Shown in pieces: positions 28,688 through 55,246 of a stretch of DNA of 64,000 bases (the stretch's first letter is position 1; each line of letters starts with the position of its first letter). The notes under the pieces were generated by a model that saw only the letters and a program-made list of their open reading frames with translations, was not told the origin of the DNA and did no database searches. Source of the DNA: Lacticaseibacillus mingshuiensis (GTDB taxonomy: Bacteria; Bacillota; Bacilli; Lactobacillales; Lactobacillaceae); NCBI RefSeq assembly GCF_016861785.1, contig NZ_BOLS01000007.1, forward strand, positions 62,001-126,000, written 5' to 3'. A program made the translations under genes and the position numbers.

Positions 28688-29404
28688 GGATGGGACGCGG
28701 ACGGGCGGCGAGGGAAGTAATGTGATGGCATCACATTTGGGCATACTCGGAAAGTATTGTGACCGCATCACACATGGGTGCACGCGAGAAGTAATGTGAT
28801 GGCGTTACACCCGGGCGCACGCGAAAAATAATGTGATGGCGTCACACTCGGGCGTGCGCGAAAAGTCAGGTGATGACGTCGCCCCCGGACGTGCACAAAA
28901 AGTAATGTGATGGGGTCACACGCCCACGATCGCCCGCGAAAAGTAATGTGATGGCGTCACACACGGGCGTCGCGAGAAGTAATGTGACCGCATCACACTG
29001 GGTAGGCATGGAAAGTAATGTGATGCCATCACACCTAAGACGTACGACCAAAAGTCGGGTGTGATCGCGTCGCTGCGAACCCCCAACAAAAATGGGATAC
29101 CATCACACCCTGTGCTGTCCTCAAAAAAGTAATGTGACCACATCACACTGATCTTGCCCCTGCAAGTTCGGGTGTGATGTGGTCACATTTTTGTTTGTCT
29201 CGATTGCGGAAAAGATGGCACGGGGCGCTACTTTTTCGTGAGACCCCAAAAAGTTTTGTGATGGCGTCACACCGCATCACAACTGGATTTCTTGGGTCTT
29301 TGTCTCGCCACACGACTTTCTGTGAGCATATTGTTAGGTATTTTTCGAAACTGGCGGTACATTCAGGTCGGAGACATCAAACAGTGACTAGGAGGCGAGT
29401 TGTG
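28688..29404. repeat. palindrome array A1 (37-bp units)
   Basis: A 717-base gene-free stretch. Palindromes of the type TGTGATGGCATCACA start at 28721, 28758, 28795, 28832, 28906, 28947, 28983, 29019, 29093, 29133, 29173 and 29257, with decayed copies at 28869 and 29060. The first six positions (28721 to 28906, counting the decayed 28869 copy) are exactly 37 apart; later spacing is 33-41. The 22-base linker is also conserved (CGGGCGTGCGCGAAAAGTAA-like). Sites vary at the three central positions while keeping dyad symmetry. Confidence 0.93.
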
Positions 29405-29410
29405 ATGGCA
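29401..29410 (+). promoter_or_regulatory. palindrome half-site over the tetR start codon
   Basis: TGTGATGGCA at 29401-29410 equals ten of the fifteen bases of the array palindrome and contains the GTG/ATG start codons of the TetR gene. The other half (TCACA) is absent. It could be chance or a relic operator. Confidence 0.3.
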
Positions 29411-30043
29411 GATAACAAAACAAATTTCGCGCCGACTGGCATGAACAGTCAGCTCGAGGCAATACTGAACGCGACGATCGATGCGTTGCGAACACAGGAT
29501 TATGCGCAGATCACTTTTCATGACCTCGAAAATCGGACCGGCATCAAATATATGACGATCAAAAGGCGATTTAATTCAAAGGCCGAGTTATTCGCAGCGG
29601 TACAGTTACACGAGTTGAAACGCGTTGGACCGGCATTTGTCAAAGTGCTGGATCCGGAGAATGATAATCTCTTGCGCAGCTACGTCAACCGTGCTGTGAA
29701 GGAAGAGGTCCCGCTGTTCAAAGTCATGATCACACTGCCGGGACTATCGCTGGATGATTTTTCCTTGGCGGCGCGGACTCGGTTGGATGAAGAATTAGGC
29801 CCACAGTATCAGAAATTGGTCACACAGCTGAGGACGGCGCATCGCTATATCGGCAAAAATGAGGCGATTGGGCTGGTGCATTTCGGGCTTGCCCTGATGG
29901 CGATCGCGTGCGAGCAGAACCGGCATCAACAAACTGATTACCAGATCGCGGACACGTTACTGGCGCTGTTGCATCTTTATCAAGGGCGCATCTATAAAGG
30001 ATTAGAGACGCCGGGTTTGCGGCAACCCCGGCGTCCGCAGTAA
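29405..30043 (+). CDS. TetR/AcrR family regulator within the palindrome arrays
   Basis: 212 residues. The N-terminal helix-turn-helix spans about residues 15-60 (ILNATIDALRTQDYAQITFHDLENRTGIKYMTIKRRFNSKAEL); the C-terminal ligand domain is not assigned to a subfamily. AGGAGG at 29390-29395 supports ATG 29405, with GTG 29402 possible. The only gene between arrays A1 and A2. It has no adjacent target gene of the usual TetR type, so either it controls distant genes or it binds the surrounding palindromes; the second idea is inference from size (15-bp dyads suit TetR dimers) and position. Confidence 0.88.
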   Translation: MADNKTNFAPTGMNSQLEAILNATIDALRTQDYAQITFHDLENRTGIKYMTIKRRFNSKAELFAAVQLHELKRVGPAFVKVLDPENDNLLRSYVNRAVKEEVPLFKVMITLPGLSLDDFSLAARTRLDEELGPQYQKLVTQLRTAHRYIGKNEAIGLVHFGLALMAIACEQNRHQQTDYQIADTLLALLHLYQGRIYKGLETPGLRQPRRPQ

Positions 30044-30101
30044 AAAGTTTTGGCTCTCCTCCTGTTTGGTTGGCAAACTCTTTCGTATAAAAAATGGTAG
30101 T

Positions 30102-30130
30102 GGCTGGTCGAGTCAGTGGCCAGCCTTTTT
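30102..30130 (+). terminator. terminator after tetR
   Basis: GGCTGG (30102-30107) pairs with CCAGCC (30120-30125) before TTTTT. Confidence 0.7.
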
Positions 30131-31260
30131 GGTGTGATGGCATCACACTATCTCACACGCCCGAGCCTTGGGGGATGTGGTCGGTAGCGTTCGGCTGACC
30201 GCTTTTTCGGTGCCGATTTTGCCATCGAAAACGTTGATCTGACGGCATTCTTGACTCGTCGGTGAGCCAATGAAGAATGCGTGTTACGAGCTATTTGTTA
30301 AAACCGCGCTAGACCGGCTTTTTGAGCCACACAAACCGGTCGTCAGAGACGCATTAGAAGGTGTGATTCGGGGGATTATTCAGTTTTTGGCTTGAACGTG
30401 ACCTTTGAATGCGCGTGGGACGTTTCAGGCGACGACTTGAGAACGGGCGCTACCGGCCGAACTTTTGTGAGGGCATCACACTAGTTCGCAGACGATTGCA
30501 GTGGCGGCGTCAACACTTGCATACTCCTGGTATATAGGTGTTGTGATCCGCTCTCAAAAGAGGCCAATCGACATACCCGGGGTACGCGGCCTGGATTTCC
30601 CCGATGCGCCGACGACAAATAATGTGATGGCATCACACTTGTTTGAAGGGAGTTCACCGGGCACGGGTGTCTGACTGACGTACTCCCGGTATGCGGGTCT
30701 CGATTTCCCGGGAAATGGCGAAAAGTAATGTGACCGCATCACACCAGCGCAACGGCTCTGCCCGGGGCAGTAATGGGATCGTATGGACTTTGAGCCTGCG
30801 AATATCGCAATATCCAACAATAACTCGCGTACTCAGGGTATGCGAATGTCGTTTTTGCTGTCAAAAGAGGTCGATCGGCATATCAGGGTACGCGGCTTTC
30901 GATTCCCCGATACACTGTAGCAAAATGGTGTGACGGCATCACACCAACATCAAAGTGCAGGGCTCGGTCGTGCAGATCTTATGGACTCAGAGTCCGCGAA
31001 TATGACAATATCGAACGGAAACCCCGAAATTCGCGGACCCGGGGTTCATAGAGTAAAAAGGCCCCGGGGGTCTGCGCTAACAAATAATGTGATGGCATCA
31101 CACCGGTTTGAAGGTGTTCAATGCGGGCGTGACTGACTGGCAGACTCCCGGTATGCGGATGTCCTAATTTACTGTCAAAAGCAGTCCATCAGCATACCCG
31201 GAGTACGCACCTCCGATATGGAGGTAAAAACAATGTGATAGCATCACACCGGTTTGTCCA
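30131..31260. repeat. palindrome array A2, composite cassettes with 65-70-bp hairpins
   Basis: Palindromes start at 30133, 30466, 30623, 30729, 30929, 31088 and 31234. Between them are imperfect inverted repeats: 30519-30587 (69 bp), 30827-30893 (67), 30983-31047 (65) and 31140-31208 (69). Type I arms read like GCGTACTCCCGGTATGCG; the type II arm reads GGACTCAGAGTCCGCGAAT. Each arm is itself a near palindrome. The unit starting at 30623 has only one arm (30679-30696) and is 106 bp long instead of about 157. Bases 30150-30460 show no clear unit. No gene is seen. Confidence 0.88.
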
Positions 31261-31620
31261 TGGTGGCGTAGGGCGCAACTAATGTCACCGCATCACACAA
31301 GATCCGGACGCGCCCGAAAGCGCACGCAACTATTGTCACCGCATCACACAAGATACGCACGCGGCCGAAAGCTCACGCAACTAATGTCACCGCATCACAC
31401 AAGATTCGGACGCCCCCCAGAAAGCTCGCGCAACTAATGTCACCGCATCACACAAAATCCGGACGCCCGCCGAAAGCTTACGCAACTATTGTCACTGCAT
31501 CACACAAAATCAGCACGCTCCCCCGAAAGCTCACGCAACTAATGTCACCGCGTCACACTAGATGCCCACCCGCCAGAAGACTCCGCAAATAATGTGACCC
31601 CATCACACCAGTTACCAGCG
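31261..31620. repeat. tandem repeat, about 52-bp units with altered palindrome
   Basis: Seven units with core starts at 31283, 31334, 31385, 31438, 31490, 31543 and 31593, spaced 50-53. Five cores are TGTCACCGCATCACA or TGTCACTGCATCACA and one is TGTCACCGCGTCACA, so the left half has lost symmetry; the last core (TGTGACCCCATCACA) is the normal form. The intervening part (CGGACGC.CCGAAAGCTCACGCAACTAA-like) is conserved too. Confidence 0.9.
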
Positions 31621-31678
31621 CACGCCTCAAATTATCCCCAGCGAAGATTCACCGCCGCGCCAATTTCTGGAAAGCCAC

Positions 31679-31707
31679 TGAAAACAAGCGGCGGCCTATG
31701 CTATACT
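31679..31707 (+). promoter_or_regulatory. candidate metG promoter
   Basis: TGAAAA and TATACT separated by 17 bases, about 80 bases before the metG start. No T-box specifier or antiterminator is visible in the short leader. Confidence 0.5.
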
Positions 31708-31709
31708 GA

Positions 31710-33764
<2,055 letters not shown>

Positions 33765-33783
33765 TTTAAGTTGAATGGATATG

Positions 33784-33817
33784 AAAAAATCGACTCGCGG
33801 GTGCGGGTCGATTTTTT
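33784..33817. terminator. bidirectional terminator after metG
   Basis: AAAAAATCGAC (33784-33794) pairs with GTCGATTTTTT (33807-33817), with further pairing of CGC/GCG inside. Confidence 0.9.
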
Positions 33818-33874
33818 GTGTGGATCTTGAGGCGCGGGATATTGGCTTGGGACCTAAGCGCTCGGCTACGCACC

Positions 33875-34636
33875 CTATTTTGCCATGTGCACGGTGGTCA
33901 ATGCGGCGTATGGGGCGAGGGCGGCTTCGTCTGCGCCGTCGTCTGTGATCAGGCCGCTGATCTGGTCGAGGGTATAGAAGGTATAAAAATCTTGCTGATC
34001 GAGTTTGCTATGGTCGCATACGACGAAGGTGGCGTGCGCATTTTTCAACGCGATGCGCAGGGTCTGGCCTTCTTCGGGACTGGTGGTGGTGATCAGCTCC
34101 TTGTTGATGCCATTGGCGCCGACGAAGGCTTTGTCAAAGCGCAGGCGTTCGAGGACCTCGTTGGCAAGGCTGCCGGCAAAGGCGCCTGAGCGTGCGCGGT
34201 AGGTGCCACCGATCAGCTGAAGGTCGACGCGACGGCCCAAGCGCTGAAAGCTTTCGAACACTTGCAGCGCGTTGGTGATAAAACGTACATCAGTTGCCTC
34301 GATGTAAGGGGCAATCAATTCCAGCGTGGTGCCGGAGCCGATGAAGATCGTGTCGCCGTCATCGATCATATCTGCGGCGAGGCGCGCAATCGCCGTTTTG
34401 GCAGGGACTTCCAGTTGGCGTTTTTCGTCGTGACTGCGCTCGGGCATGTGCGCCAGTCCGCGACTTTGCGCGCCGCCGTGGATCCGGATCAGCGCATTTT
34501 CCGCCGCGAGTTCATCGAGGTCCCGCCGCACGGTCATGGTGGACACCCCAAGCGTTTCACCGATTTCGCTGACGGTCACGATTCCCTTTTTTTCAACCAG
34601 CGACTTGATCGTAATGAGCCGTTCGCGCTTGAGCAT
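33875..34636 (-). CDS. DeoR/GlpR family sugar-responsive repressor
   Basis: 253 residues. An N-terminal DeoR helix-turn-helix (ERLITIKSLVEKKGIVTVSEI...STMTVRRDLDELA) is followed by a sugar-phosphate-sensing domain (DTIFIGSGTTLELIAPYI, FITNALQVFE, LIGGTYRARSGAFAG, FVGANGIN). Resembles LacR-like repressors. No sugar operon is adjacent. ATG 34636 is favoured over a GTG three codons earlier because of spacing from AAAGG. Upstream, 34655-34690 holds repeats of a TTGTTYGT type that could be its operator. Confidence 0.92.
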   Translation of the reverse strand: MLKRERLITIKSLVEKKGIVTVSEIGETLGVSTMTVRRDLDELAAENALIRIHGGAQSRGLAHMPERSHDEKRQLEVPAKTAIARLAADMIDDGDTIFIGSGTTLELIAPYIEATDVRFITNALQVFESFQRLGRRVDLQLIGGTYRARSGAFAGSLANEVLERLRFDKAFVGANGINKELITTTSPEEGQTLRIALKNAHATFVVCDHSKLDQQDFYTFYTLDQISGLITDDGADEAALAPYAALTTVHMAK

Positions 34637-35378
34637 TGTCGTCACACCTTTTCCATTGTTTGTGAGTTCTTGTTCGTTCCTGTTGACGTTAGCACGCTTT
34701 TCTCAAAATCACAAGTAAATTGCGCCAAACGAACAATGGGGCGAGATCTTCAAATACGGAGACGAGTGACCAGTCTATTACTTCAGTTGACACAGGCAAA
34801 AACTGCTCACGCTACAACGCTGCCTGGGGAAATCGGGCGCTTGCTTGATAGCGTTGAGATTCTATTATTCGGAGCCACAGCGAAAGAGCGAGAAATCGCG
34901 TCAAGGATTCCTAAATCGTCGTGCCGGCCGAAACTGTTCGTAGAATCTCGATGGAGCAAGAATAATAAAGGCAAGCCGCTGTTAACTCGTCGTGCTCGCG
35001 GTGGCTATTCTGCTTATCGTCGACACCACGCTTCAAACGGTGTGGCAAATTGCCGGGGAAAATGCGACGATTGTGTGCCAATACGAGCGCGGCGCGATGT
35101 CCCTGACCAGCCTCTTGTTAGATGTGCCCGTCAGCCAAAAAGTAATTGCCAAAAAGGATGCAACATACTGGCAACTGATCCACGCCGAACATTCACGGCA
35201 GGCGGCACGTACTCGCCGCTTTCACCGGTGGTTTGGCTATGTGGGTCGATGCCCGCGTCCAGTCAAATCACTTTTGCGAGTGAGGCGACACCTCAGAAAA
35301 AATAGTTTCGGCGGCTGACTAATCTTCACACACACGCCACATTTGCGGGGTACACTTGCCCTACATATGGAGGCAATC
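34637..35378. other. mostly non-coding region with a doubtful ORF
   Basis: 742 bases between the DeoR gene and a small membrane-protein gene. A frame at 34992-35318 (108 codons, GTG start, begins MLAVAILLIVDTTLQTVWQ) has protein-like composition at first but no ribosome site and an Arg-rich end. It may be a gene remnant. No repeats of the palindrome family here. Confidence 0.35.
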
Positions 35379-35960
35379 ATGACAACAACAGCGAATCTTA
35401 TTTTTCAAGGCGCCATGCTTGTGGCGATACTGTGCGCATTTCTCAGCCTGCGCCTCAAAAAACAGGCGGACAAACAGGCACCATCCCTGACCAAGACGCT
35501 TGGCCTCTCCAAACTCGAGACGTGGCGCTACAACCAACGCCTTCAACTCGCGCTCGTCGACCTCGATAACGCGCTGTTCACAAGCCAAACCCGTCTTGGC
35601 CTTTCAGCAATGGCCATGATGGTCACGCTCGGCGGCTGGCTTGCCGTGACCCTTGAACTGGAAGTCCACCTCGCGCGCCTGTGCGTCTGGTCGGTGCTCG
35701 TCATGGCTGGTTATCTCTGGTTCACCCGCACCAGCTGGACACGTCGAGCCAAAAACCTCGCCGCCATCGACCAGATGCTTGAAAAAGACCCAGACCAGGC
35801 CGCCAGTTTTTCCATCACCAAAGCGGGCCAGGCAAAAGGCAAAGCAGTCGAAGGTAAACGCAAATTAGCCGCGATTCTGGTCATCATTGGCCTCACCGTT
35901 ATCGTCCTCGCCCGCATCTACCTCGACATCGCCACCATCCAGGCAAACACCTTGCATTGA
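35379..35960 (+). CDS. hypothetical membrane protein
   Basis: 193 residues with three to four hydrophobic segments (LIFQGAMLVAILCAFLSLRL, the pair between about residues 75 and 120, and a C-terminal LAAILVIIGLTVIVLARIYL) separated by basic cytoplasmic loops. No family recognised. ATG 35379 has GGAGG five bases upstream. Monocistronic, closed by a very strong terminator. Confidence 0.72.
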   Translation: MTTTANLIFQGAMLVAILCAFLSLRLKKQADKQAPSLTKTLGLSKLETWRYNQRLQLALVDLDNALFTSQTRLGLSAMAMMVTLGGWLAVTLELEVHLARLCVWSVLVMAGYLWFTRTSWTRRAKNLAAIDQMLEKDPDQAASFSITKAGQAKGKAVEGKRKLAAILVIIGLTVIVLARIYLDIATIQANTLH

Positions 35961-35999
35961 TCGCCTTTATAATAGAAGAAAAAACGCGCACACAACCGA

Positions 36000-36048
36000 A
36001 AAACCAGCCGCAAAGCCTTGTAGGAAAAGGGCTTGCGGCTGGTTTTTT
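36000..36048 (+). terminator. terminator after hypothetical membrane protein gene
   Basis: AAAACCAGCCGCAA (from 36000) pairs with TTGCGGCTGGTTTT (36033-36046), followed by further T. Confidence 0.88.
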
Positions 36049-36254
36049 GCGTGTGGAACGTGTCGAATCCGTGGCGATTGCGACAGATTATGGCGCGTGA
36101 GAGATAGGCGGAAGGCGGCGTAGGGCGAAGAAATGCGCCGACAGAAGGGGACAGCAAGCGAATTTTAGAAACAGTATCAATGCGTAAATGTCATTTGATT
36201 TCTGCCAAGCATCTTCCACAACCGGGAAGGCAAATCTACTTCTGTATTTCTGCA

Positions 36255-36471
36255 GTGCTGGATATGAGGTGGGCTTCGGCCGAAAATGGCTCGCTTCGCA
36301 TGTCTGGGCGTAAGGCGTAAACGCCTAACGCCCAGAGCAAGCCCCCTCGTCGGCGTTGGCGGCTATGCCGCCTACGCCGAAAGTGAGCTTTGAGACCGCG
36401 ACCTTCGCGGGCTCAAAGTCACTTGTCCGCTCTACTCCGGTCGCCAGCCAGTTTCTGGCCGAAGCTCACCC
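36255..36471 (+). repeat. 217-bp structured dispersed repeat, copy 2
   Basis: The same length as the other two copies. Its stems differ from copy 3 by paired changes: GGGCTTCGGCC with GGCCGAAGCTC at the ends, TGGGCG/CGCCCA instead of TTGGCG/CGCCAA, GGCG/CGCC instead of GGTG/CACC. It ends about 95 bases before tatD, in a 607-base gap otherwise without features. Confidence 0.85.
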
Positions 36472-36567
36472 GGGCGCTTTCTCCAAATCCGACAGTGAAA
36501 ATCCGGGTCGATTTGCCGGCCCGGTTGCTGGCAAGTATAATGGCAGGAGACGAATGAGGTGTACAAC

Positions 36568-37347
36568 ATGGAGATCTTTGATTCACATACCCATCTAAAC
36601 GACACGCCGTACTTGGGCCACGAAGCAGAATACGTCCAGCAGGCACACGACCTAGGCGTCACCGAAATGGCGATCGTCGGCTCAGACACCGTGCTGAATG
36701 ACGGGGCCCTGCGCCTGGCGCACAGCTTTTCAAACCTCTACGCGATCATTGGCTGGCATCCCGAATCCAGCAAAGATTACGATCAGGCCAAAGAAAATCA
36801 GCTGATCCAAGACCTCGCCGATCCAAAAGTGGTCGCACTAGGGGAGATCGGACTGGATTATCACTGGGACACCAGCCCGCGTGAGACCCAGCGCCGTGTT
36901 TTTGCCCGCCAGCTCGCCATCGCACGTGACTTGCACATTCCCGTGTCGATTCACACCCGCGAGGCCTTCGACGACACTTATCGCATCATGCAGGAAGCAC
37001 ATTTTGACCAGATCGGCGGCATCATGCACAGCTTCACCGGCGACGGCGAATGGGCCAAGAAGTTCCTTGACCTCGGCGCGTATGTCTCCTATTCCGGCAT
37101 TGTCAGTTTCAAAAATGCGCCTGAGGAACACGAAAGCGTGCAGGTCATTCCCGAAGACCGCTTGCTGGTCGAAACGGACGCGCCTTATCTAACCCCGGCG
37201 CCGTACCGCGGACGGCCGAACCAGCCAGCCTATACCCGCTATGTGGTTGAGGCCGTGGCTAACTTGCGCGGCGACACGCCGGAACATATCGCCGCGATCA
37301 CTCGGGCAAACGCCCACCGTATTTTTAACCTAAAGGAGAACAATTGA
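36568..37347 (+). CDS. tatD: TatD family metal-dependent deoxyribonuclease
   Basis: 259 residues with the TatD metal-binding blocks FDSHTHLND, ALGEIGLDYHW, PVSIHTREAF, GIMHSFTGDGEW and LLVETDAPYLTP. 3'-5' nuclease, possibly in DNA repair. ATG 36568 has GAGGTG upstream. Its stop overlaps the rnmV start. Confidence 0.95.
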   Translation: MEIFDSHTHLNDTPYLGHEAEYVQQAHDLGVTEMAIVGSDTVLNDGALRLAHSFSNLYAIIGWHPESSKDYDQAKENQLIQDLADPKVVALGEIGLDYHWDTSPRETQRRVFARQLAIARDLHIPVSIHTREAFDDTYRIMQEAHFDQIGGIMHSFTGDGEWAKKFLDLGAYVSYSGIVSFKNAPEEHESVQVIPEDRLLVETDAPYLTPAPYRGRPNQPAYTRYVVEAVANLRGDTPEHIAAITRANAHRIFNLKENN

Positions 37348-37910
37348 GTCCATTTAAACAGATCATCGTGGTCGAGGGCCGTGACGACACGAAACGACTG
37401 ACCGAGGCATTCGGCAAGATTGATACGATCGAAACGCGCGGCAGCGCCATCGATGACAAAACGCTGGATGTGATCAAAAAGGCGCAGGAAACGCGCGGCG
37501 TGATTGTGCTCACGGATCCGGATTTCCCGGGCGAAAAGATTCGCAAAACCATCAGCGCTCATGTGCCCGGCGTTCAGCACGCTTTTTTGCCAAGAGGCGA
37601 GGCAGCCCCGGATGGTCCAGGCTCGCTTGGGGTCGAGCACGCCAGCCCGGCTGCGCTGAAGGCTGCGCTGGAGGCGGTGGCGACGCCGAGTGAGGACGCG
37701 CCGCAACTCTTCGACCAAAGCGACTTACAGGCAGCCGGGCTGATCGGCGGTGCCGGGTCCCGCGCCAAACGTGAGCGGCTGGGGGAGCTGCTCCACATCG
37801 GCTACACCAATGGCAAGCAGCTCGTCCATCGCTTGCAGGCATTCGGCATCACACGCACGCAATTGACCGACGCGCTCGCCCAGCTCGACAAGGAGGCTTC
37901 ACATGACTGA
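37344..37910 (+). CDS. rnmV: ribonuclease M5
   Basis: Matures 5S rRNA. 188 residues: an N-terminal TOPRIM domain with IIVVEGRDDTKRL (Glu) and VIVLTDPDFPGEKIR (Asp pair), then the M5-specific C-terminal domain. Starts with TTG 37344 overlapping the tatD stop, with AAGGAGAA upstream. Overlaps ksgA by eight bases. Confidence 0.95.
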   Translation: MSPFKQIIVVEGRDDTKRLTEAFGKIDTIETRGSAIDDKTLDVIKKAQETRGVIVLTDPDFPGEKIRKTISAHVPGVQHAFLPRGEAAPDGPGSLGVEHASPAALKAALEAVATPSEDAPQLFDQSDLQAAGLIGGAGSRAKRERLGELLHIGYTNGKQLVHRLQAFGITRTQLTDALAQLDKEASHD

Positions 37911-38790
37911 CGTATTACCGATCGTCGCGCCCGAACGCACCCGCGCGATTTTGAAGGCCCATGGGTTTCGCTTGAAAAAACGGCTCGGGCAAAATTTTCT
38001 GACCGTCCCCAAAGTCTTGGCGCGCATCGTGACCGCGGCGCAACTGACCGAAGCGGATGACGTGATCGAGATCGGACCCGGAATCGGCGCGCTCACCGAA
38101 TTTTTAGCTGGTAGTGCAGGCCGGGTGCTGGCCATTGAGATCGACCCGCAGCTCCTGCCTGTTTTGGCCGACACCATGGCACCGTATGATAACGTGCAGG
38201 TGGTGGAAGGCGACGTGCTCAAGCTCGACTTGCCGGCGCTGGTCGAGGAAAAATTGCCGGGATCAACGCGCCTCAAAGTGGTCGCCAACCTCCCGTACTA
38301 CATCACGACGCCGATCTTGATGCACCTGCTTCAAAGCGACCTGCCACTCGCCGGTCTGACCGTGATGATGCAAAAAGAAGTCGCGGATCGCTTGACGGCG
38401 CGGCCGAGCACCAAAGATTACGGTAGTCTCTCCATCGCTGTGCAACAAAACATGCATGTCGCGGTGGCGTTTGATGTCAGCCGCAAGTCCTTTGTCCCAG
38501 CCCCGAATGTCGATTCGGCCATCGTGACGTTGACTCGCCGCGCCCAGCCACTGGCCGAAGTCACTGATCAGGAATCCTTTGATAAGCTGGTCCGAGGCGG
38601 CTTTGCGGCCCGGCGCAAAACACTTTGGAATAATCTTATCAACCTTTATGGAAAAACGGACGCGGTCAAAGAAAAAATTTCTTTGGCACTGCAGGATTGC
38701 AATATTGAGGCAAGCACGCGGGCTGAAACACTTGATATTCCGGCATTTGCGGCTCTTAGCAACGCCCTTTTTGCCCGCGACGTTCGATAA
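37903..38790 (+). CDS. rsmA: 16S rRNA dimethyladenosine transferase
   Basis: KsgA: dimethylates two adenines in the 3' hairpin of 16S rRNA using SAM. 295 residues; RLGQNFL, VIEIGPGIGALTEFL (SAM loop), NLPYYITTPIL (NLPY catalytic motif). Third gene of the tatD-rnmV-ksgA operon; a GAGG-type site lies in the end of rnmV. Confidence 0.96.
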   Translation: MTDVLPIVAPERTRAILKAHGFRLKKRLGQNFLTVPKVLARIVTAAQLTEADDVIEIGPGIGALTEFLAGSAGRVLAIEIDPQLLPVLADTMAPYDNVQVVEGDVLKLDLPALVEEKLPGSTRLKVVANLPYYITTPILMHLLQSDLPLAGLTVMMQKEVADRLTARPSTKDYGSLSIAVQQNMHVAVAFDVSRKSFVPAPNVDSAIVTLTRRAQPLAEVTDQESFDKLVRGGFAARRKTLWNNLINLYGKTDAVKEKISLALQDCNIEASTRAETLDIPAFAALSNALFARDVR

Positions 38791-38880
38791 CGCAAAATGA
38801 TGAGAAAAAGCTAAGAAAAGCGACCACGGCGCGGGTTTGCGAGCGTTTTTTGTTGCGCGGCTTGCATGGCAATGGTATAA

Positions 38881-38909
38881 TTGCAAATTTCTTGCGAATC
38901 TGTTATGAT
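38881..38909 (+). promoter_or_regulatory. veg promoter
   Basis: TTGCAA and TATGAT with a 17-base spacer, 22 bases before the veg start codon region. Confidence 0.75.
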
Positions 38910-38930
38910 GTTAACTAAGAGGTGAAGTGC

Positions 38931-39182: not shown

Positions 39183-39199
39183 AACTAAATACCGATTGA

Positions 39200-47089: not shown

Positions 47090-47129
47090 CGGTGGTGCCG
47101 CGCAATTAGTAAAAAAGAAGGCCATCGTA

Positions 47130-47168
47130 AAAAATTCGGCTCGTCCAACCAGGGCGGGCCGAATTTTT
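47130..47168. terminator. bidirectional terminator
   Basis: AAAATTCGGC.CG.CC pairs with GG.CG.GCCGAATTTT (47130-47168), between the plus-strand permease gene and the convergent FetB-like gene. Confidence 0.9.
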
Positions 47169-47215
47169 GATGGATGCGAGGCGCGCCAGCGTGGGCCTCA
47201 GGCTGCGCCCTATTT

Positions 47216-47977
47216 TCAGCGCAGCTGGAGATCTTCGTTGTAGTAGCGCGGATACGCGAGGTAACAGGCGATCACACTGCCGAGGCTGGTGGCCGCCAGC
47301 AGCATGAAGGTCACCATGATCTGATACATGATTGCCTTGGTCGGGTCGACGCCGGCGAAGATCAGACCGGACATCATTCCAGGTAGGGAGACCAGGCCAA
47401 CTGTTTTCGCCGAATCGATGGTCGGCGACATGCCGGTCCGAATCGCTTCGCGGACGATGCCGATTGAGGCCTGCTTGAGGGTTGCGCCGAGTGCGAGCCG
47501 CTCGAGCACGGCCTGCCGTTGATCATGGAAGCTGGTGTTCATATTGCGGTAACACAGCCCGATCGCGACCATGGCGTTGGAGGCGATCATGCCCGAGATC
47601 GGCACGATCTGCGACGGCGTGAATTTCACCGCATGCGCCAGGACCAGCAGCACGATCGTCACGCCGGTCGCCACGGTGATCGCCAGCAGACTGATCGCAA
47701 ACGCGTGCGGAATCCCGTTGGCGCGTTTGCGAGCGTTGAGTGCAGCGTTGAAGATGATGATCGCCATCATTAAAAAGGTGAGTGGCGCGCGGTCGACTTT
47801 GATAATGTAGGTCAGCACGTACCCGACGACGGTGAGCTGAATCACCGCGCGCACGACGCCGACCAGCATCTCTTTTTCCAGGCCGATCTTTTCGTGAAAA
47901 TTGATGATGAGCGCGATGGCGACCAGCGCGACCGCAAATAGCAAAGCGGTGGGGGAAACGATCAGATCATTTGTCAC
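47216..47977 (-). CDS. fetB: FetB/YbbM family ABC permease (UPF0014)
   Basis: 253 residues, seven to eight helices; VRAVIQLTVVGYVLTYI and the cytoplasmic ERLALGATLKQASIGIVREAIRTGMSPTIDSAKTVGLVSLPGMMSG segment are typical of UPF0014. In E. coli FetAB exports iron and protects against oxidative stress; that role here is inferred. Starts at GTG 47977, nine bases after AGGAGG, overlapping the end of the ATPase gene by 11 bases. Confidence 0.92.
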   Translation of the reverse strand: MTNDLIVSPTALLFAVALVAIALIINFHEKIGLEKEMLVGVVRAVIQLTVVGYVLTYIIKVDRAPLTFLMMAIIIFNAALNARKRANGIPHAFAISLLAITVATGVTIVLLVLAHAVKFTPSQIVPISGMIASNAMVAIGLCYRNMNTSFHDQRQAVLERLALGATLKQASIGIVREAIRTGMSPTIDSAKTVGLVSLPGMMSGLIFAGVDPTKAIMYQIMVTFMLLAATSLGSVIACYLAYPRYYNEDLQLR

Positions 47978-48626
47978 GGCGAATGGCCTCCTTGTCCAGT
48001 GTGCCGTCGCGCAGCGCAAGTAGGTCATGCGCCACTGCGATCTCGCCTTCGTCATGGGTGACGGCGATCACGGTCATGCCGTTGCGGTTGCCGGCTTCGA
48101 TCAGCTGATGGACGATGGCCTTGGTGTCGTGATCCAGGCCGGTCGTGACCTCGTCGAGCAGCAGCACTTTTGGCGGAAAAAGCAGATTACGGATCAAGGC
48201 GACCCGCTGTTTTTCCCCGCCGGACAGCTCGGTGATCGGCTTGTCCAGCATCTCGGCAGGCAGATCGACATCGCTCAGTGCCGCAAGCGCCTTGGCCGCA
48301 TCGAAGGGCCGGCTGCGGAGCTCGAACGGAAACGCGAGGTTGTCGCGGACTGTTTCGCCAAAGAGACTGGGCTGCTGAAAACAGTAGGAGACTTCGCGGC
48401 GATAGGCGATCTTGTCAAAACTGCTTTGCGGTCGATCTAAGTAGGTGATGGTGCCAGCGGTGGGCGTCAGAAGAGTCGCCAAAAGCCGCAAGACGGTGCT
48501 TTTGCCCGCCCCGGATGGCCCGACGATCGTTAAATACGCCCCAGGTTCCACGGTGAAGGAAATATCATGTAAAATTGGGCGGTCGCCGACGGTCAAGCCG
48601 ACATCCCGCAGATCAAAGACTGCCAT
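47967..48626 (-). CDS. fetA: FetA/YbbL family ABC ATPase
   Basis: 219 residues: Walker A GPSGAGKS, signature LSGGEKQRVALIRNL, Walker B VLLLDEVTTGLD, H-loop VTHDEGE. Partner of the UPF0014 permease. The ATG follows GAGGTG. The pair is one of the insertions between ispE and purR. Confidence 0.93.
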   Translation of the reverse strand: MAVFDLRDVGLTVGDRPILHDISFTVEPGAYLTIVGPSGAGKSTVLRLLATLLTPTAGTITYLDRPQSSFDKIAYRREVSYCFQQPSLFGETVRDNLAFPFELRSRPFDAAKALAALSDVDLPAEMLDKPITELSGGEKQRVALIRNLLFPPKVLLLDEVTTGLDHDTKAIVHQLIEAGNRNGMTVIAVTHDEGEIAVAHDLLALRDGTLDKEAIRRDK

Positions 48627-48718
48627 GTGCGCACCTCGTATTCATTACTTTATAATCATTCTAAACAATGTGCGATGAGAACGCTAGCATTCTTCTTATT
48701 TCCTTAATTTATGCGAGG

Positions 48719-48730
48719 GAAACGAACAAT
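48719..48730 (+). promoter_or_regulatory. candidate PurBox upstream of purR
   Basis: GAAACGAACAAT agrees with the core of the PurR-binding consensus AWWWCCGAACWWT except at the first C. A TATAAT -10 box follows at 48777-48782. Suggests autoregulation by PurR. Confidence 0.45.
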
Positions 48731-48845
48731 CAAAACAGATGTGAGAAAATATCTAGGAATTTGCAAACAAATCCCGTATAATTGGGAAGATTAAATCACC
48801 TTGTGTTGTGATAATCCAAATATTCGGAGTTAAGGAGACTTCATT

Positions 48846-49694
48846 ATGAAAGTTCGTCGCAGCGATCGGCTGATCGACATGACCCGTTACTTACTCGAGC
48901 GCCCCCATACCCTGGTGCCGCTGACCTATTTTTCCCGGCGTTATGACAGCGCCAAGTCCTCGATCTCAGAGGACCTTGCAATCGTCCGCCGTGTGTTTGC
49001 CCAGCGCCAGACCGGCCTGCTTGAAACGGTGCCCGGTGCCGCTGGTGGGGTGCGCTACATCCCAATGGCCGGCAAGGAAGAAGCCGAAGCATTCGTGACT
49101 GGCATGGCCAAGCGCCTGTCCGAAACGGATCGTCTTTTGCCAGGCGGTTACGTGTACCTGTCTGATCTGCTCGGCACGCCAGAAGTCTTGCGCGAGATCG
49201 GCCGGCTGATCGCCACGCAATACGTGGACCAGCATGTTGACGCCGTGATGACCGTCGCCACCAAGGGTATTCCGATCGCGCAAAGCGTCAGTCAGTACCT
49301 CAACGTGCCGTTTGTGATCGTGCGGCGCGATAGCAAGATCACCGAGGGCTCGACCGTTTCCGTCAATTACGTGTCCGCCAGCAGTGCCCGCATCGAGAAA
49401 ATGGAGCTGTCTAAGCGCAGTTTGCCGGCGAACTCCGGGGTCTTGATCGTCGACGATTTCATGAAGGGCGGCGGCACCGTTAACGGGATGCGCAGCTTGA
49501 TCGAGGAATTTGATGCGAAGCTCGTCGGCATTTCCGTCTTCGCCGAGGGCAACTTCTCGGGCGACCGGATGGTATCCGATTACACCAGCATCATTCGCGT
49601 CGATGAAGTGGACACTAAGGCCAACACGTTGCATGCCATTCCGGGCAATTATCTGGCGAAAAATGCGGCGCACTTCGACCATTTTAAAGCGTAA
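48846..49694 (+). CDS. purR: purine operon regulator PurR
   Basis: 282 residues: N-terminal winged helix (RSDRLIDMTRYLLERPHTLVPL ... SAKSSISEDLAIVRR) and a PRTase-like domain with the PRPP loop VLIVDDFMKGGGTV. Binds PRPP as inducer signal and controls purine genes. The start has GGAG about nine bases upstream. Canonically followed by glmU; here a VanZ/RDD gene is inserted, coupled by a TAATG overlap. Confidence 0.96.
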   Translation: MKVRRSDRLIDMTRYLLERPHTLVPLTYFSRRYDSAKSSISEDLAIVRRVFAQRQTGLLETVPGAAGGVRYIPMAGKEEAEAFVTGMAKRLSETDRLLPGGYVYLSDLLGTPEVLREIGRLIATQYVDQHVDAVMTVATKGIPIAQSVSQYLNVPFVIVRRDSKITEGSTVSVNYVSASSARIEKMELSKRSLPANSGVLIVDDFMKGGGTVNGMRSLIEEFDAKLVGISVFAEGNFSGDRMVSDYTSIIRVDEVDTKANTLHAIPGNYLAKNAAHFDHFKA

Positions 49695-50860
49695 TGAGTA
49701 CCTATCTGTTTCCGGTGAAAATGGCGCTGATGCTCTTTCCGTTTTTGGCGCTGGTCCTCGCCTTGCCAGTTTTTGTCGGCCAATATCGCCGCTACGGCAG
49801 TTTCGTGTTTTGGCGGGCAGTCGTGATCTACACTTTCATCTTCTATTTGCTGACGGCGTATTTCATGGTGATCTTGCCGCTGCCGACCGTGGCCAGTGTG
49901 GCAAAAATGACCGGACCGACCTATAACCTGGTGCCATTCAAGGTGGTCAGTGACTTTTTCAAGCAGACCGTGTTCGTCTTGAGCGATCCGGCCACGTGGC
50001 TTGCAGCCTTGAAGCAAAACGTGGTAATTCAGCCGCTGTTTAATCTGCTATTGACCTTGCCGTTTGGCGTCTACCTGCGCTATTACTTCAAGCGGTCCTT
50101 GAAGCAGGTGCTCCTGTTGTCGTTCGGGCTCAGTCTGTTTTTCGAATTGACCCAATTGACCGGGCTGTACGGCATCTACCCACGGCCGTATCGGTTGTTT
50201 GACGTGGATGACCTGATGCTGAATTCACTGGGCGGGCTGCTGGGCGGCTTGCTGGCGCCGGCGTTGATGCGGCTTTTTCCCACCCGTGAGCAAATGGACG
50301 CGAAAGCCTATGAACGCGGGCAGCGCGTCACCTTCACCCGGCGCCTCGTCGCGTTTTTGATCGACAACGTCATCGCGGTCGGCCTTTTCACGATGGTGGT
50401 GGGGCTGGTCGCGCAACTGCTGCATGTAACGGCTTTCGTCGACGCCTCGGGGCTGGGCAATACCATTCCCCAGCTGATGGTTTTCCTGTTCTGGCCGGCA
50501 GTGGCAGGCGGGCAGACCTTGGGTAAAAAATTGGTCCGCATCCGCATCGTTAAACGCGATGGCGCTGCGTGCGGCTTTTGGCGGCTGGCGTGGCGCGAAT
50601 TTTTGCTCTACGGCGTCGCGTATTGGGCGCTGCGCGGGCTGATCTGGAGCACCACCGAACTATTTTCCAAAATGCATCAGACGCCGGTCGATTGGCTGTT
50701 GTTTGGCCTGACGCTGGGCGCGACGCTGTTTTTCCTGGTAGATATTCTGGTGGTCGGGCTGCGGCGCACGCGGGCCTTTCACGATGTGTGGGCCGGCACG
50801 ACGCAGATCAGCACGGTCGAGCGGCCGGTTGAAACTGAGTCGGGGTCTTCCGCCAAATAA
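49694..50860 (+). CDS. VanZ-RDD fusion membrane protein
   Basis: 388 residues with two membrane domains. About 1-200 is VanZ-like (MFPFLALVLALPVF..., LLLTLPFGVYLRYYFKRSLKQVLLLSFGLSLFFELTQL, RLFDVDDLMLNSLGGLLGG). About 210-375 is an RDD domain (VTFTRRLVAFLIDNVIA, AGGQTLGKKLVRIRI, RRTRAFHDVWAGT). VanZ relatives give low-level glycopeptide tolerance by an unknown mechanism. No clear ribosome site, so it depends on translation of purR. Confidence 0.92.
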   Translation: MSTYLFPVKMALMLFPFLALVLALPVFVGQYRRYGSFVFWRAVVIYTFIFYLLTAYFMVILPLPTVASVAKMTGPTYNLVPFKVVSDFFKQTVFVLSDPATWLAALKQNVVIQPLFNLLLTLPFGVYLRYYFKRSLKQVLLLSFGLSLFFELTQLTGLYGIYPRPYRLFDVDDLMLNSLGGLLGGLLAPALMRLFPTREQMDAKAYERGQRVTFTRRLVAFLIDNVIAVGLFTMVVGLVAQLLHVTAFVDASGLGNTIPQLMVFLFWPAVAGGQTLGKKLVRIRIVKRDGAACGFWRLAWREFLLYGVAYWALRGLIWSTTELFSKMHQTPVDWLLFGLTLGATLFFLVDILVVGLRRTRAFHDVWAGTTQISTVERPVETESGSSAK

Positions 50861-50874
50861 ATGTCTCGCACAAG

Positions 50875-50901
50875 TAGCTCGGCCAGACGCCGGGCTATTT
50901 T
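50875..50901 (+). terminator. terminator after VanZ-RDD gene
   Basis: TAGCTCGGC (50875-50883) pairs with GCCGGGCTA (50889-50897), one wobble pair, then TTTT. Confidence 0.75.
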
Positions 50902-50931
50902 GTATTGGTCTACACCGGAAAACGCCGTGTG

Positions 50932-50960
50932 TTGCGATTTTCGGCCAGCTGGGCTATGAT
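50932..50960 (+). promoter_or_regulatory. glmU promoter
   Basis: TTGCGA and TATGAT with a 17-base spacer, 32 bases before the glmU start. Confidence 0.75.
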
Positions 50961-50992
50961 GAAAACGAGTTTTCAGATGGGAGCGTTTTGGA

Positions 50993-52381
50993 ATGGCAGG
51001 GAAATACACGATCATCCTCGCAGCCGGCAAAGGCACGCGGATGAAGAGCAAATTATACAAAGTGCTGCATCCCGTATGCGGCAAGCCGATGGTGGATCAC
51101 GTCTTGACGGCAATCGAAAAGACGCAGCCGGACAAGGTCGTGACGATCGTTGGCCACGGCGCCGAGGCAGTCGAGGAAACGCTGGGCGACCGCTCGGAAT
51201 ATGTCGTTCAGGAATCACAGTTGGGCACCGGCCACGCTGTTTTGCAGGCGGAACCGCTGCTCGGCGACAAAACGGGGATGACGCTGATCGCAAGTGGCGA
51301 CACGCCGCTTTTGACCGCCACCACTTTTGAAAAATTATTCGCCTACCATAAAGATAAGGGCGCCAAGGCCACTATTTTGACCGCGACCGCCCCGGATCCG
51401 ACCGGTTATGGCCGCATCGTGCGCAACGACCTCGGCATTGTCGAGAAGATCGTTGAGCAAAAAGATGCGAGCTTGGAAGAGGCGCGGATCACCGAGATCA
51501 ATACCGGCGTCTATTGTTTTGACAATCAGGCGCTGTTCGAGGCGCTGCACAAGGTCACGAACCATAACGCGCAAGGCGAATATTACCTGACCGACGTGAT
51601 CGAGATCTTGAAAAAAGAAGGCGCGATCGTGGCCGCTTACAAGATGGCCAACTTCGAGGAGTCGATGGGCGTCAATGACCGCATCGCCTTGGCCGCCGCG
51701 ACGAAGGTGATGCAGCAGCGCATCAACACGCGTCACATGCAAGACGGTGTCACGTTGATCGACCCGGCCACCACATACATCGACACGGATGTCCAGATCG
51801 GCAGCGACACCGTGATCGAGCCGAGCGTCAGCCTCAAAGGGCACACGGTGATCGGGGAGGATTGCGTGATCGGCACACATTCCGAGCTGATCGACGCCAC
51901 TCTAGAAGACAATGTCCACGTGGTTTCCTCAACGATCGAGCACGCGGTGATGCATAGCGGCTCCGACATCGGTCCGAATTCCCATCTGCGGCCGAAAGCG
52001 GAGATTGGCGAAAATGCGCATCTGGGCAATTTTGTTGAGATCAAAAACGCGACGATCGGCGCCCGCACCAAGGTTGGTCATCTGACTTATGTCGGCGATG
52101 CGACCCTGGGCACGGATATCAACGTGGGCTGCGGCGTGGTCTTCGTCAACTATGACGGCGTGCAAAAGTTCCACACCACGATCGGCGACAAGAGTTTCAT
52201 CGGCTCAAACTCTAACATCATCGCCCCGGTCAACATGGCGGATCACAGCTTCATCGCCGCCGGGTCCACGATCACCGACGACATTCCCAAGCACGCGATG
52301 GCGATCGCCCGCGCGCGGCAAACCAACAAACCCGACTTTTGGCAGCGCCTGCCGCTGGCCAACTCGAAGGATTGGGATTAA
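50993..52381 (+). CDS. glmU: bifunctional GlcNAc-1-P uridyltransferase / GlcN-1-P acetyltransferase
   Basis: 462 residues, makes UDP-GlcNAc for the cell wall. An N-terminal nucleotidyltransferase ([35 protein letters not shown]) is followed by a C-terminal left-handed beta-helix of hexapeptide repeats (from about residue 250) ending in the acetyltransferase site [20 protein letters not shown]. Full length. GGGAG nine bases before the ATG. In most relatives prs follows; here 7.3 kb intervene. Confidence 0.97.
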
Positions 52382-52398
52382 CTGAATTGAAATGGAAG

Positions 52399-52429
52399 AG
52401 GCTGGCGCTGCAAGGTGCTGGCCTTTTTG
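52399..52429 (+). terminator. terminator after glmU
   Basis: AGGCTGGCGC (52399-52408) pairs with GTGCTGGCCT (52415-52424) using G-T pairs, then TTTTTG. Confidence 0.75.
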
Positions 52430-52439
52430 TTTTGGGGTT

Positions 52440-53860
52440 TGGGGCGCGGGGAAAGCGTGGAAAAGTAATGTGATGGCGTCACACCAGTTTCTGGGGGTGG
52501 AGGTCGGAAGCCGTCAAACTTGCGTACCCCCGGCATGTGGATGTCGCGATATCGCCTCACAAGATGTCGATCAGCGGACTCCGGGTATGCGCTTTTCAGA
52601 TTCTCGGGGCGTGCCAGGACAAACTCGTGTGACAGCATCACACCAATGTTGAAGCCGGCCTCTGGGCGTGCGAATTCAGCAGGACTCTCGGTCCGCGAAT
52701 ATCGAGATTTTTGCAAAAAGCGGAACAATTCGCGGACCAGGAGTCCACCGCGCGACCCCGGTATGCAGCTAGTCAGTTATGTGACGGCATCACACAAATA
52801 TCGACGCCGACTCGGGGGGGTGCGGAATTCAGATGGACTCCCGGTCCGCAAATGTCGAGATTTTTGACAAAAGCGGAACAATTCGCGGACCGGGAGTCCA
52901 AGGGCACCACCACGCCCACAGTATGCATTTATCAAGTTGTGTGATGGCGTCACAAAAGGTCAAACGATTCTTCCGAGGGCGTGCTCATACATCCGCGTAC
53001 TCCCGGTATGCGACTTTCAGATTCTTGGGGTGCCAGGACAAACTTGTGTGATGGCGTCACAAAAGTTCAAAAAGATTTTTCCGGGCACCCCCACATTCGC
53101 GTACCCCGGGTATGCGTATTTGGCGATATCGCTTTAAAAGATGTCGATCGACATACTCCCGGTATGCGACTTTCAGATTCTCGATGTCCCAGCACGAACT
53201 CGTGTGACGGCATCACACCAATATCGAGGCCCTTTTGTGGGGCGTGCGCGGGAACGCGTTCAAACTAATGTGATGCCATCACATTAGTTGTCGGCGAAAG
53301 TTCTTGGGCGTCCAAATCCGTGAACCCCCGGTATGCCTATAAACATCTTTTGCCAACAAATCACGACATTCGCATCCCCTGAGTCCGCGAGTTTATGTTT
53401 TTTTGACATTGCTATAGTCGCGGACTAAGCGCCAGACGAGCTCTCCCTGACCCAGACACGAGGCTTTGTGTTGGTGTGATGCGGTCACATTACTTTCTCC
53501 ATTTCCTGGGAGGGCGCAGCATACCGTGAGTACGCTGATTTGCCGATTTCAAAGGATGCCAACAACATCCGCATACCGGAAGTGGCGAGTCAGATGCCCA
53601 CCCAGTAGACCGCTTTTAACTAGTGGGATGCCATCACATTAGTTGTTAGCACGACCGCCCAATTCTCCAATCGTGGGCCCTGAGTCCGCAAATTCCGGGT
53701 CTTCGGTTCAATATTTTCATATTCGCAGACCCTGAACCCATGAAAGATCCGCCAACCCAGGGGCGTGCGCTTTGAGGTTGGTGGGATGTCATCACATTAG
53801 TTGTCACACCCATCCCCGAGCCAAGGAATTTGTGGGATGCCATCACATTGACCGTCACGC
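52440..53860. repeat. palindrome array B, composite cassettes with hairpins
   Basis: A gene-free stretch of about 1.4 kb. Palindromes start at 52469, 52628, 52780, 52940, 53047, 53203, 53269, 53475, 53624, 53782 and 53833. Hairpins: type I at 52522-52591 (70 bp) and 53099-53168 (70), degenerate at about 53320-53388 and 53519-53587; type II at 52682-52746 (65), 52835-52899 (65) and 53675-53739 (65). Most spacings are 149-160; the 107-bp unit from 52940 carries one arm only (52995-53012). Linkers share GGGCGTGC and CTTTCAGATTCT-like blocks. Confidence 0.9.
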
Positions 53861-53890
53861 AAAAAAGAGACAAAACGGCTGTCTTGTCCC
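53861..53890 (-). terminator. terminator of the acetyltransferase gene
   Basis: GGGACAA and TTGTCTC pair on the minus strand (53867-53890), followed by a T run (AAAAAA at 53861-53866 on the plus strand). Confidence 0.7.
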
Positions 53891-53913
53891 AGAATAATTT
53901 GTCTTAACTGATA

Positions 53914-54537
53914 TTACTTCTGATCCGCAAACATATCAGGATCGATCCGCCGGTCTTTAAAATAAAATTCCCGGTCGTGGTCATTGATTGGGCGGACGAC
54001 TTGGCACGGATCGCCGAATGCGACGACATTACTTGGCAGATCTTTGGTCACGATGCTGCCTGCGCCGACGACGACATTATCGCCGATCGTGACGCCAGGC
54101 AAAATGATGACGCCGGCGCCGAACCAGCAATTTTCGCCGATCACCACTGGCGCATTGTATTGGTAACCTTGGGCGCGGAGCTCTGGCAGAAGTGGGTGGC
54201 CGGCCGTGGCAATTGTCACATTCGGCCCAAACATTGTGTGACTGCCGACGGTGATGTAGGTGTCATCCACCATCGTCAAGTTGAAATTGGCGTAGACCGC
54301 ATCGCCAAACCGCACATGGTAGCCACCAAAGTTTGCGTGCAGCGGCGGTTCGATGTAGCAATTCTCCCCCATCTTGGCGAACATGTCATGAAGCATGGCG
54401 TCGCGTTTTGCCGATTCGCTGGGCCGTGTCTGATTAAAATCGTAAAGTTTTTCGAGACACTGTTGTTGCACCGCACTGATCTCGGGATCGCCCGGGTTAT
54501 ACAGATCTCCGGAGTGCATTTTCTCTTTGTCGTTCAT
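53914..54537 (-). CDS. sugar O-acetyltransferase (LacA/Maa family)
   Basis: 207 residues: an N-terminal Mac domain (MHSGDLYNPGDPEISAVQQQ) and hexapeptide left-handed beta-helix (PPLHANFGGYHVRFGDAVYANFN, catalytic histidine in TAGHPL, GENCWFGAGVIILPGVTIGDNVVVGAGSIVTKD). Transfers acetyl from acetyl-CoA to a sugar such as maltose or a galactoside. The ATG follows GAAGGGAG. Single gene lying between palindrome arrays. Confidence 0.95.
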   Translation of the reverse strand: MNDKEKMHSGDLYNPGDPEISAVQQQCLEKLYDFNQTRPSESAKRDAMLHDMFAKMGENCYIEPPLHANFGGYHVRFGDAVYANFNLTMVDDTYITVGSHTMFGPNVTIATAGHPLLPELRAQGYQYNAPVVIGENCWFGAGVIILPGVTIGDNVVVGAGSIVTKDLPSNVVAFGDPCQVVRPINDHDREFYFKDRRIDPDMFADQK

Positions 54538-55246
54538 CTGGCGTTCTCCCTTCGCACTATCTCGCTCCAGTATATCGAGGTATTCGCGTGACTTCTATTT
54601 TCAAAAGGCGCGCGATATAGGCTTTTTGTTTCCTGACGCATGCTAGATCGACTCAAGCGACTGACGATTTCGGGCGCGTCATCGCATAGGGATACCGTCT
54701 TTTTCTGTCAAAAAAGGGTTGTCTGAAACGTTGATGGACCGGCTTTCTTGTTCTGGTGGATGGCCGTCATTGGGACGAAAAGGCGTTGTGACAGCTTTTG
54801 TACTAGTTAGATCATCCCGCGAGATTTGCGCTGTGTTGTGATTTCGTGGGTAGTTGCCCATGTTTTCGACGAACGCGACGTCCTATTGCGTGATAGCCGC
54901 TTGCGCACGAATCATATCCTACCGTCATACGTGAGAAGTTGTGTGATAGCGTCACACCAGTTTCGCACTTTCATGCGAGGGCGTGCGGCCGCATACTCTG
55001 AGTACGCGGAGTTGCATTTCGATGGCTTCAATCGCGATATTTGCATACTCGGGGTACGCAGAGCGGAAACTGGTATGGCGGCCAACGTCCTGTCGTGCAA
55101 TCTCTGAGATTGCGAATGCGGAAATTTGTTGCGAAAAAGGGCAAATTGACAATCTCAGAGATCGCGGCTCTCGCGCGGCCACGGAGAGCGACTAGCGGAT
55201 AGGTGTGATGGGGTCACATTATTTTCAACAACGCCTAGCGGGGCAA
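54538..55246. repeat. palindrome array C
   Basis: A gene-free region. Palindromes at 54942-54956 (TGTGATAGCGTCACA) and 55204-55218 (TGTGATGGGGTCACA). Between them are two hairpins of the cassette kind: 54991-55059 (69 bp, arms GCATACTCTGAGTACGC and GCATACTCGGGGTACGC) and 55097-55166 (70 bp, arms built on AATCTCTGAGATT). Bases 54538-54930 show nothing identifiable. Confidence 0.8.

Follow-up and report, generated by a model that had tools for sequence, protein, structure and literature searches.

The window analysed here is a 64,000-nucleotide stretch of Lacticaseibacillus mingshuiensis (bases 62001-126000 of contig 7), whose genome (G000) amounts to 2.76 Mb in 56 contigs. Four of its stretches carry repeated copies of a 15-bp palindrome, TGTGANNNNNTCACA (TGTGA-N5-TCACA), and the richest of them encloses an orphan gene of the TetR family (Table 1). 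The window holds 30 exact matches against 0.13 expected, a number reached in none of 100 shuffles, and the genome holds 115 exact copies against 2 for a reversed-pattern control. The genome scan proposed in a first-pass annotation of the window thus places the motif well away from chance level, and its copies cluster in intergenic islands.

The palindrome and its islands

The first-pass annotation had listed 41 copies. Their coordinates are right, and the number becomes 42 (2+27+11+2 over the four stretches) when one arm mismatch is allowed. Thirty of these sites have perfect arms, and most of the other 12 have one altered arm, with TGTCA at 31283-31543 and TGGGA at 53624-53847. Eighteen such stretches, or islands, were read across the genome (32.4 kb). 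They contain 111 of the 115 exact copies, as well as 169 sites with at most one arm mismatch, and up to 17 sites are found per island, with 27 in the tetR island. A better consensus is TGTGA-Y-NNN-R-TCACA. The outer letters of the centre in the 111 exact sites are T..G (39), T..A (38), C..A (29), C..G (4) and G..A (1), and one exact copy located outside the islands, on contig 6, has a centre that is not of the Y/R type. An A-rich flank, AAAnTRR, lies outside each arm, with A at position -5 in 186 of the 222 flanks of the exact sites. Through the tandem units, sites are spaced by 36-41, 49-53, about 140, 155, 196, 240 or 250 bp. The window sites are intergenic as far as could be judged, as had been claimed: the open reading frames (ORFs) overlapping them look spurious by eye, and sites 29173 and 29257, although inside an open frame, stand upstream of the likely tetR ATG at 29405.

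Several known sites were compared with the palindrome. The CRP site is TGTGA-N6-TCACA, and a likeness of half-sites had been pointed out in the first-pass annotation; this likeness is unsupported and a CRP-type site was rejected, the six-base-gap form having no match in the window and the gap here being of five bases. The sequence ATTTCCCGGGAAAT, which we take to be the Noc site, has 4 window matches with up to three mismatches against 3.78 expected, one of them exact and inside an island (30703-30716). With up to two mismatches it occurs 4 times in the 32.4 kb of islands and never in 41 kb of control DNA, counts too small to judge. ParB motifs are absent from the window.

The islands are mosaics in which at least three further dyad families share the Y-NNN-R grammar, with arms GGAC, RATC and RTAC. 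When non-GTGA dyads having arms of 4 bp and a gap of 5 bases are counted, 104 of 212 show Y..R centres, compared with 30 of 133 in control DNA. Members of one family tend to follow each other at exactly 52 bp (45/101 successive distances for GGAC, 23/70 for RATC and 15/39 for RTAC, with at most one arm mismatch). At 51-53 bp, 87 same-family pairs were counted versus 2 different-family pairs, these counts including tandem copies, which are not independent. A reading of the intervening palindromes as long hairpins was rejected, as they resolve into pairs of small dyads. A contig end of Ammoniphilus resinae (L062:1-330) carries TGTGACAGAGTCACA repeated at 52 bp upstream of a GntR-like ORF (named by eye); it appears unrelated.

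Table 1. Dyad arrays, 52-bp dyad pairs and the TetR-like gene in the window
Position	Strand	Feature	Remark
6377..6501	.	Two TGTGA dyads	Enclose one GGAC dyad (6434)
28721..29271	.	12 TGTGA-Y-NNN-R-TCACA dyads, 36-84 bp apart	Two with one arm mismatch; upstream of TetR-like gene
29405..30043	+	Gene of orphan TetR-family protein, 212 aa	32% identical to paralogue beside GGAC-dyad array
30133..31248	.	Second TGTGA cluster, of seven dyads	RTAC and GGAC dyads interspersed
30521..30585	.	RTAC pair	Starts 30521/30573, 52 bp
31142..31206	.	RTAC-like pair	First dyad AGAC; starts 31142/31194, 52 bp
31283..31607	.	Seven copies in tandem, at intervals of 50-53 bp	One arm is TGTCA in six of them
52469..53847	.	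Island, 11 dyads of the TGTGA type	Between convergent glmU and acetyltransferase gene
52682..52746	.	GGAC-Y-NNN-R-GTCC pair	Starts 52682/52734, exactly 52 bp; also readable as one long inverted repeat
52835..52899	.	Second GGAC pair	Starts 52835/52887, 52 bp
53101..53165	.	RTAC-Y-NNN-R-GTAY pair	Starts 53101/53153, 52 bp
54942..55218	.	Two TGTGA dyads	Enclose one RTAC pair and one RATC pair
54993..55057	.	RTAC pair	Starts 54993/55045, 52 bp
55099..55163	.	RATC-Y-NNN-R-GATY pair	Starts 55099/55151, 52 bp

Beside these features, the ORF at 55542-56456, adjoining the last island, matches the NCBIfam model of a LAPAL-motif putative phage structural protein. Between the 15-mers of several islands (L021:2246-2644, L022, L025, L029 and perhaps 30181-30460 of the window), another repeated element, some 330-400 bp long, was seen by eye.

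Occurrence in relatives and constraint on the arms

Among 29 relatives searched in the genus, only Lacticaseibacillus yichunensis 33-1 (G021) shares the expansion of TGTGA-N5-TCACA, with 39 exact copies versus 0-5 in the other 28. The pattern GGACYNNNRGTCCGC, counted on both strands, has 50 matches in L. mingshuiensis, 27 in L. yichunensis and at most 3 in the other 28, and a RATC pattern has 10, 6 and 0, respectively. The metG gene of L. yichunensis is 98% identical, that of the next relative 80%. A scan of genome contigs for two TGTGA dyads 36-66 bp apart returned 28 stretches, of which those from lactobacilli belong to L. yichunensis only (three), records near the window being possibly excluded. 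An ancestral single site in relatives was rejected: the copies of G005 and G028 lie in corresponding stretches that look coding by eye. A phage or plasmid origin was likewise rejected, as the window island had no match in phages, one repeat unit had none in plasmids, and the two TetR proteins described below had none in plasmids, nor did the window one in viral contigs. In the literature, no such repeats were found described in Lacticaseibacillus in titles and abstracts among the matches listed, and the motif strings occurred in none of the papers searched. A second long repeat family (L027:1581-3000 and L023:1608-2448) has 24 matches in L. mingshuiensis, 17 in L. yichunensis and 0 in two further genus members, a few of these being short and due to the 15-mer alone. 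Each of the two copies named is directly preceded by one 15-mer. In Prevotella records (L058, L067), TGTGAY-NNN-R-TCACA words occur in 66-bp repeats that are possibly coding.

The flanks of the islands align between the two carrier species. In alignments of more than 88% identity and more than 150 bases, taken best first with overlaps removed (L031, the same place as L119, and loci of other species were left out), 1112 of 9402 intergenic positions differ (11.8%), compared with 1327 of 28509 outside intergenic DNA (4.65%). In the arms of exact 15-mers, only 1 of 230 positions differs for sites exact in L. mingshuiensis and 3 of 240 for sites exact in L. yichunensis; tested against half the background, as if one lineage alone could change, this gives P = 2e-5 and 4e-4. 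The 24 aligned exact sites are spread over 11 sequences. For the 46 sites with at most one mismatch in either genome, 11 of 450 positions changed over the ten arm positions, versus 4.5 to 23% at flanking positions, and the base located five outside the arm, most commonly A, is also rarely changed (4/88). The constraint depends on the dyad context: for TGTGA and TCACA words, changes number 5 of 350 within dyads and 21 of 116 when these words stand isolated in the same DNA (Fisher 1e-9). Another word of the islands, GCACGCCC, displays no clear constraint between the two species.

The way in which the arms vary inside the genome bears on what reads them. At 58 sites, one arm is perfect and the other altered, in most cases to TGTCA or TGGGA, and among the 16 sites with one change per arm a single one is compensated, which is perhaps not a true site. 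Arm changes that are almost never compensated point to a DNA dyad read by a protein and not to an RNA hairpin. Moreover, T..G and C..A sites are intermixed in the islands, 19 of 68 being in the minority orientation, so that neither strand would give consistent hairpins. RNA or single-strand hairpins, whether REP-like and moved by a Y1 transposase or belonging to structured transcripts, are thus a very improbable account of the 15-mer, even though the islands are full of palindromes and Y1_Tnp genes exist in 13 of the 30 genus genomes, both carriers included. The three Y1_Tnp matches in L. mingshuiensis lie outside every stretch read as an island, and the locus of the full-length Y1 gene lacks the 15-mer and includes an ORF that looks TnpB-like by eye. 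Rfam covariance models gave no match in the window at the gathering score. According to the part of the REP/BIME literature cited here, these elements, associated with RAYT transposases, are also multi-copy extragenic palindromes, often paired (PMC3733652), whereas the islands read lack a RAYT-like gene and the GTAG/CGTC tag; at the foot of the palindrome, GTAG was found in 1 and CGTC in 0 of 222 flanks. Metagenome-assembled genomes of Sulfurovum and Campylobacteraceae (L044, L045, L055, L066, L070, L071) contain GTAGG-TGTGACCATGTCACA-C, often in inverted pairs, elements that look like GTAG-tagged REP/BIME with a similar core.

Taken on these sequence comparisons, the 15-mer is very probably a constrained DNA dyad read by a protein. 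The first-pass annotation had proposed a protein-binding dyad with preserved arms and a variable centre, and both the arm-specific constraint and the one-sided, uncompensated changes argue in its favour.

Two paralogous TetR-like genes beside dense arrays

The window TetR protein (29405-30043) matches TetR_N with 26.9 bits, above the cut-off of 24, the longer ORF of the same gene falling just below it (23.2 bits). Its similarity to TetR chains in the PDB is weak. Its structure model is of low confidence, and SlmA and RefZ are not among the best 50 matches of a fold search, which excludes nothing. The array upstream of the gene is the densest TGTGA cluster among the islands read and stops about 130 bp before tetR, and the next densest starts about 1 kb after it. 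The DUF72-metG spacer, which holds array, tetR and array, is 3,100 bp long here, whereas in 10 of the 28 relatives that are more distant it measures 85-118 bp.

A paralogue of this orphan gene, itself an orphan, has a comparable setting, with the difference that its array is built from GGAC dyads. Upstream of it, 23 GGAC-Y-NNN-R-GTCC dyads follow each other with a spacing of 52.18 bp (sd 0.39) in L. mingshuiensis (L221:3013-4161), and 34 dyads at 52-53 bp are found in L. yichunensis (L222:1879-3807). Between the two species, the GGAC arms of this array changed at 11 of 168 positions versus 109 of 544 in its spacer, in the better of two overlapping alignments (8/135 versus 80/396 in the other). 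The paralogue gene itself has a dN of 0.011 and a dS of 0.166. Beyond it lies a D-serine-dehydratase-like ORF (named by eye). The two TetR loci carry 16 GTGA and 15 GGAC exact-arm dyads, respectively, whereas the other 25 TetR_N matches and 20 control regions carry at most 2 each. Neither protein has a match in plasmids or is a PHROG, and the window TetR has none in viral contigs.

A single TetR gene next to one of 18 islands could be there by chance; the case for a TetR reader depends on the paralogue, which repeats the pattern of a gene beside an array. On this basis, the protein encoded at 29405-30043 is probably the reader of the TGTGA dyad. Palindromes close to their own gene are frequent targets of TetR proteins. 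Together with the array ending about 130 bp before tetR, this would suit ordinary operators of a regulator controlling neighbouring genes. Such an explanation seems unlikely for the islands at large, as they occupy tandem, divergent and convergent gene settings (judged by the longest ORFs), adjoin in several cases housekeeping genes (rpoD-, infC-, glmU-, metG- and trmFO-like) and accumulate more than a dozen sites in places.

Origin, placement and possible role of the arrays

The reading preferred here, with a probability of roughly 0.55, is that the islands derive from arrays of operators for paralogous TetR-like proteins, scattered over intergenic mosaics, and that selection keeps their TGTGA sites. 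In this view, a dimeric protein, most probably the orphan TetR of the window, would bind the 15-mer as an operator-type dyad. The dyad families would follow one grammar (A-rich flank, 4-5 bp arm and Y-NNN-R centre) with differing arms, and at least two of them would each be the target of a TetR-like protein whose gene adjoins a dense array of these dyads, the proteins being paralogues. A distance of 52 bp, or five helical turns, would favour two dimers on the same DNA face. The arrays beside the genes may have acted as sources, from which pieces, in many cases two dyads of one family at 52 bp, were scattered by recombination or copying into mosaic islands, the TGTGA arms then being kept intact by selection. 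If so, binding at many places would matter to the cell.

Several findings weigh against this reading. Within the data searched, the system was found in two species only, and the constraint consequently rests on a single pair. For the TGTGA family the 52-bp rule is weak, with 12 of 150 successive distances at 51-53 bp for about 1 expected. There is no clear constraint on the GGAC, RATC and RTAC arms of the dispersed islands (4/80, 14/144 and 1/28 changed), and no TetR was found next to RATC or RTAC arrays. The gene tetR adjoins one of 18 islands, which may be chance. In the L. yichunensis assembly no orthologue of the window TetR was found, just the 32% paralogue, although the 15-mers are constrained between both species. 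Its contigs break inside the tetR island, the match of C40 stopping near 28790-28828 and that of C54 starting near 31276, and the smallest of 13 contigs looked at measures 1,469 bp, so that a loss of tetR to an assembly gap is possible but unproved. The single island adjoining tetR and the orthologue not found in L. yichunensis would suit a constrained site of another protein, such as a recombinase, a nucleoid protein or a regulator, with the TetR neighbour being coincidental. This alternative is considered rather unlikely, as the sole close paralogue found also adjoins a dense array of the same grammar, which no other TetR_N match does, and the two densest 15-mer clusters lie on either side of tetR.

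A last point against concerns rearrangement. The islands are repetitive, rearranged between the species and expanded in tandem. The large indels looked at inside islands end at GCACGCCC, and alignment ends between islands are enriched at this word (7.0% within 3 bp, null 2.1%). They are also enriched up to 12 bp from the 15-mer (27.0%, null 19.2%, sd 2.7), as they would be around a recombination boundary. Such behaviour in one lineage only is what a selfish or recombinogenic intergenic mosaic of the NIME or STAR type would display, the 15-mer being a mere junction repeat without host function. However, within 3 bp of the 15-mer alignment ends are depleted (6.4% against a null of 10.3%), and at orthologous positions its arms are constrained amid surroundings that have drifted by about 12%, which makes this explanation improbable. 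The first-pass annotation had offered a binding platform or a self-propagating cassette; the data fit a mixture of both, in which the mosaic repeats, rearranges and expands while the 15-mer itself is constrained. The further dyad families, the pairing at 52 bp and the TetR-like gene next to the densest cluster are additions to that annotation.

Both repeat types named above resemble the islands in part. As far as the cited part of its description goes, NIME of Neisseria, made of dRS3 and RS repeats, also combines longer repeats and a short inverted-repeat word, in arrays that span 200-2700 bp between genes (PMC3898611). The islands differ by a TetR gene, 52-bp pairs and arm-specific constraint, and the dRS3 pattern ATTCCC-N8-GGGAAT has no match in the window. 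The excerpt consulted on STAR of Staphylococcus aureus describes a word of 14 bp that forms spacer-containing arrays between genes and is frequent only in certain species; purifying selection has been proposed for it and its function is unknown (PMC3532100). The STAR word is direct, GC-rich and not a dyad, and nothing in the window matches its consensus T(G/A/T)TGTTG(G/T)GGCCC(C/A), even when one mismatch is allowed.

The few islands that could be placed are not confined to one part of the chromosome. Genes beside six of them map to about 0.72, 1.43, 1.47, 1.53, 1.74 and 2.62 Mb of a closed relative. Placement relied on pieces of ordinary proteins, 15 of 17 being matched, one of them weakly, and two contig 2 markers lay far apart, gene order being different. 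A single chromosomal domain was rejected because the placed neighbours are scattered over several parts of closed relatives. Sites are clustered at the contig level (P = 0.036), and the neighbours of three contig-1 islands fall at 1.43-1.53 Mb of a 3.0-Mb relative, whose origin was not verified and whose gene order differs in places.

Scattered palindromes read by TetR-family proteins are known from SlmA and its SBS sites in E. coli and from RefZ and its RBM sites in Bacillus, and both proteins use them to link division to the chromosome (PMC6657595, PMC4726725). In the sections of these papers drawn on here, the likeness lies in palindromic sites scattered over the chromosome, by the dozen in the case of SlmA, as with the 115 exact copies and their neighbours at several map positions. 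The difference lies in numbers and layout, 24-52 SBSs and five RBMs with ter-depleted or conserved placement contrasting with more than 100 sites in dense arrays, mosaic islands and several parallel specificities. By analogy, the preferred role can be put forward tentatively: as with SlmA or RefZ, the bound sites may form a nucleoprotein network that spans the chromosome and acts on the cell cycle or on nucleoid structure, plain gene regulation or titration being alternative roles. It is also conceivable, if speculative, that several paralogous TetR-like proteins that bind arrays arose in this lineage, each having a "satellite" of phased dyads next to its gene and dispersed 52-bp pairs between other genes. 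Together they would form a centromere- or nucleoid-like scaffold of multiple specificities on the chromosome, in which protein and site duplicate together.

Intergenic repeat arrays are already known in several bacteria, as with STAR and NIME, STAR being without a described function. Here the repeat is accompanied by a candidate reader and by a paralogous pair that serves as an internal control; its spacing rule is clean and its constraint has been measured, thanks to which the purpose of intergenic arrays becomes testable in a lactic acid bacterium. If the proposed reading is true, these species would also show a protein and its sites diversifying jointly, away from ordinary promoters.

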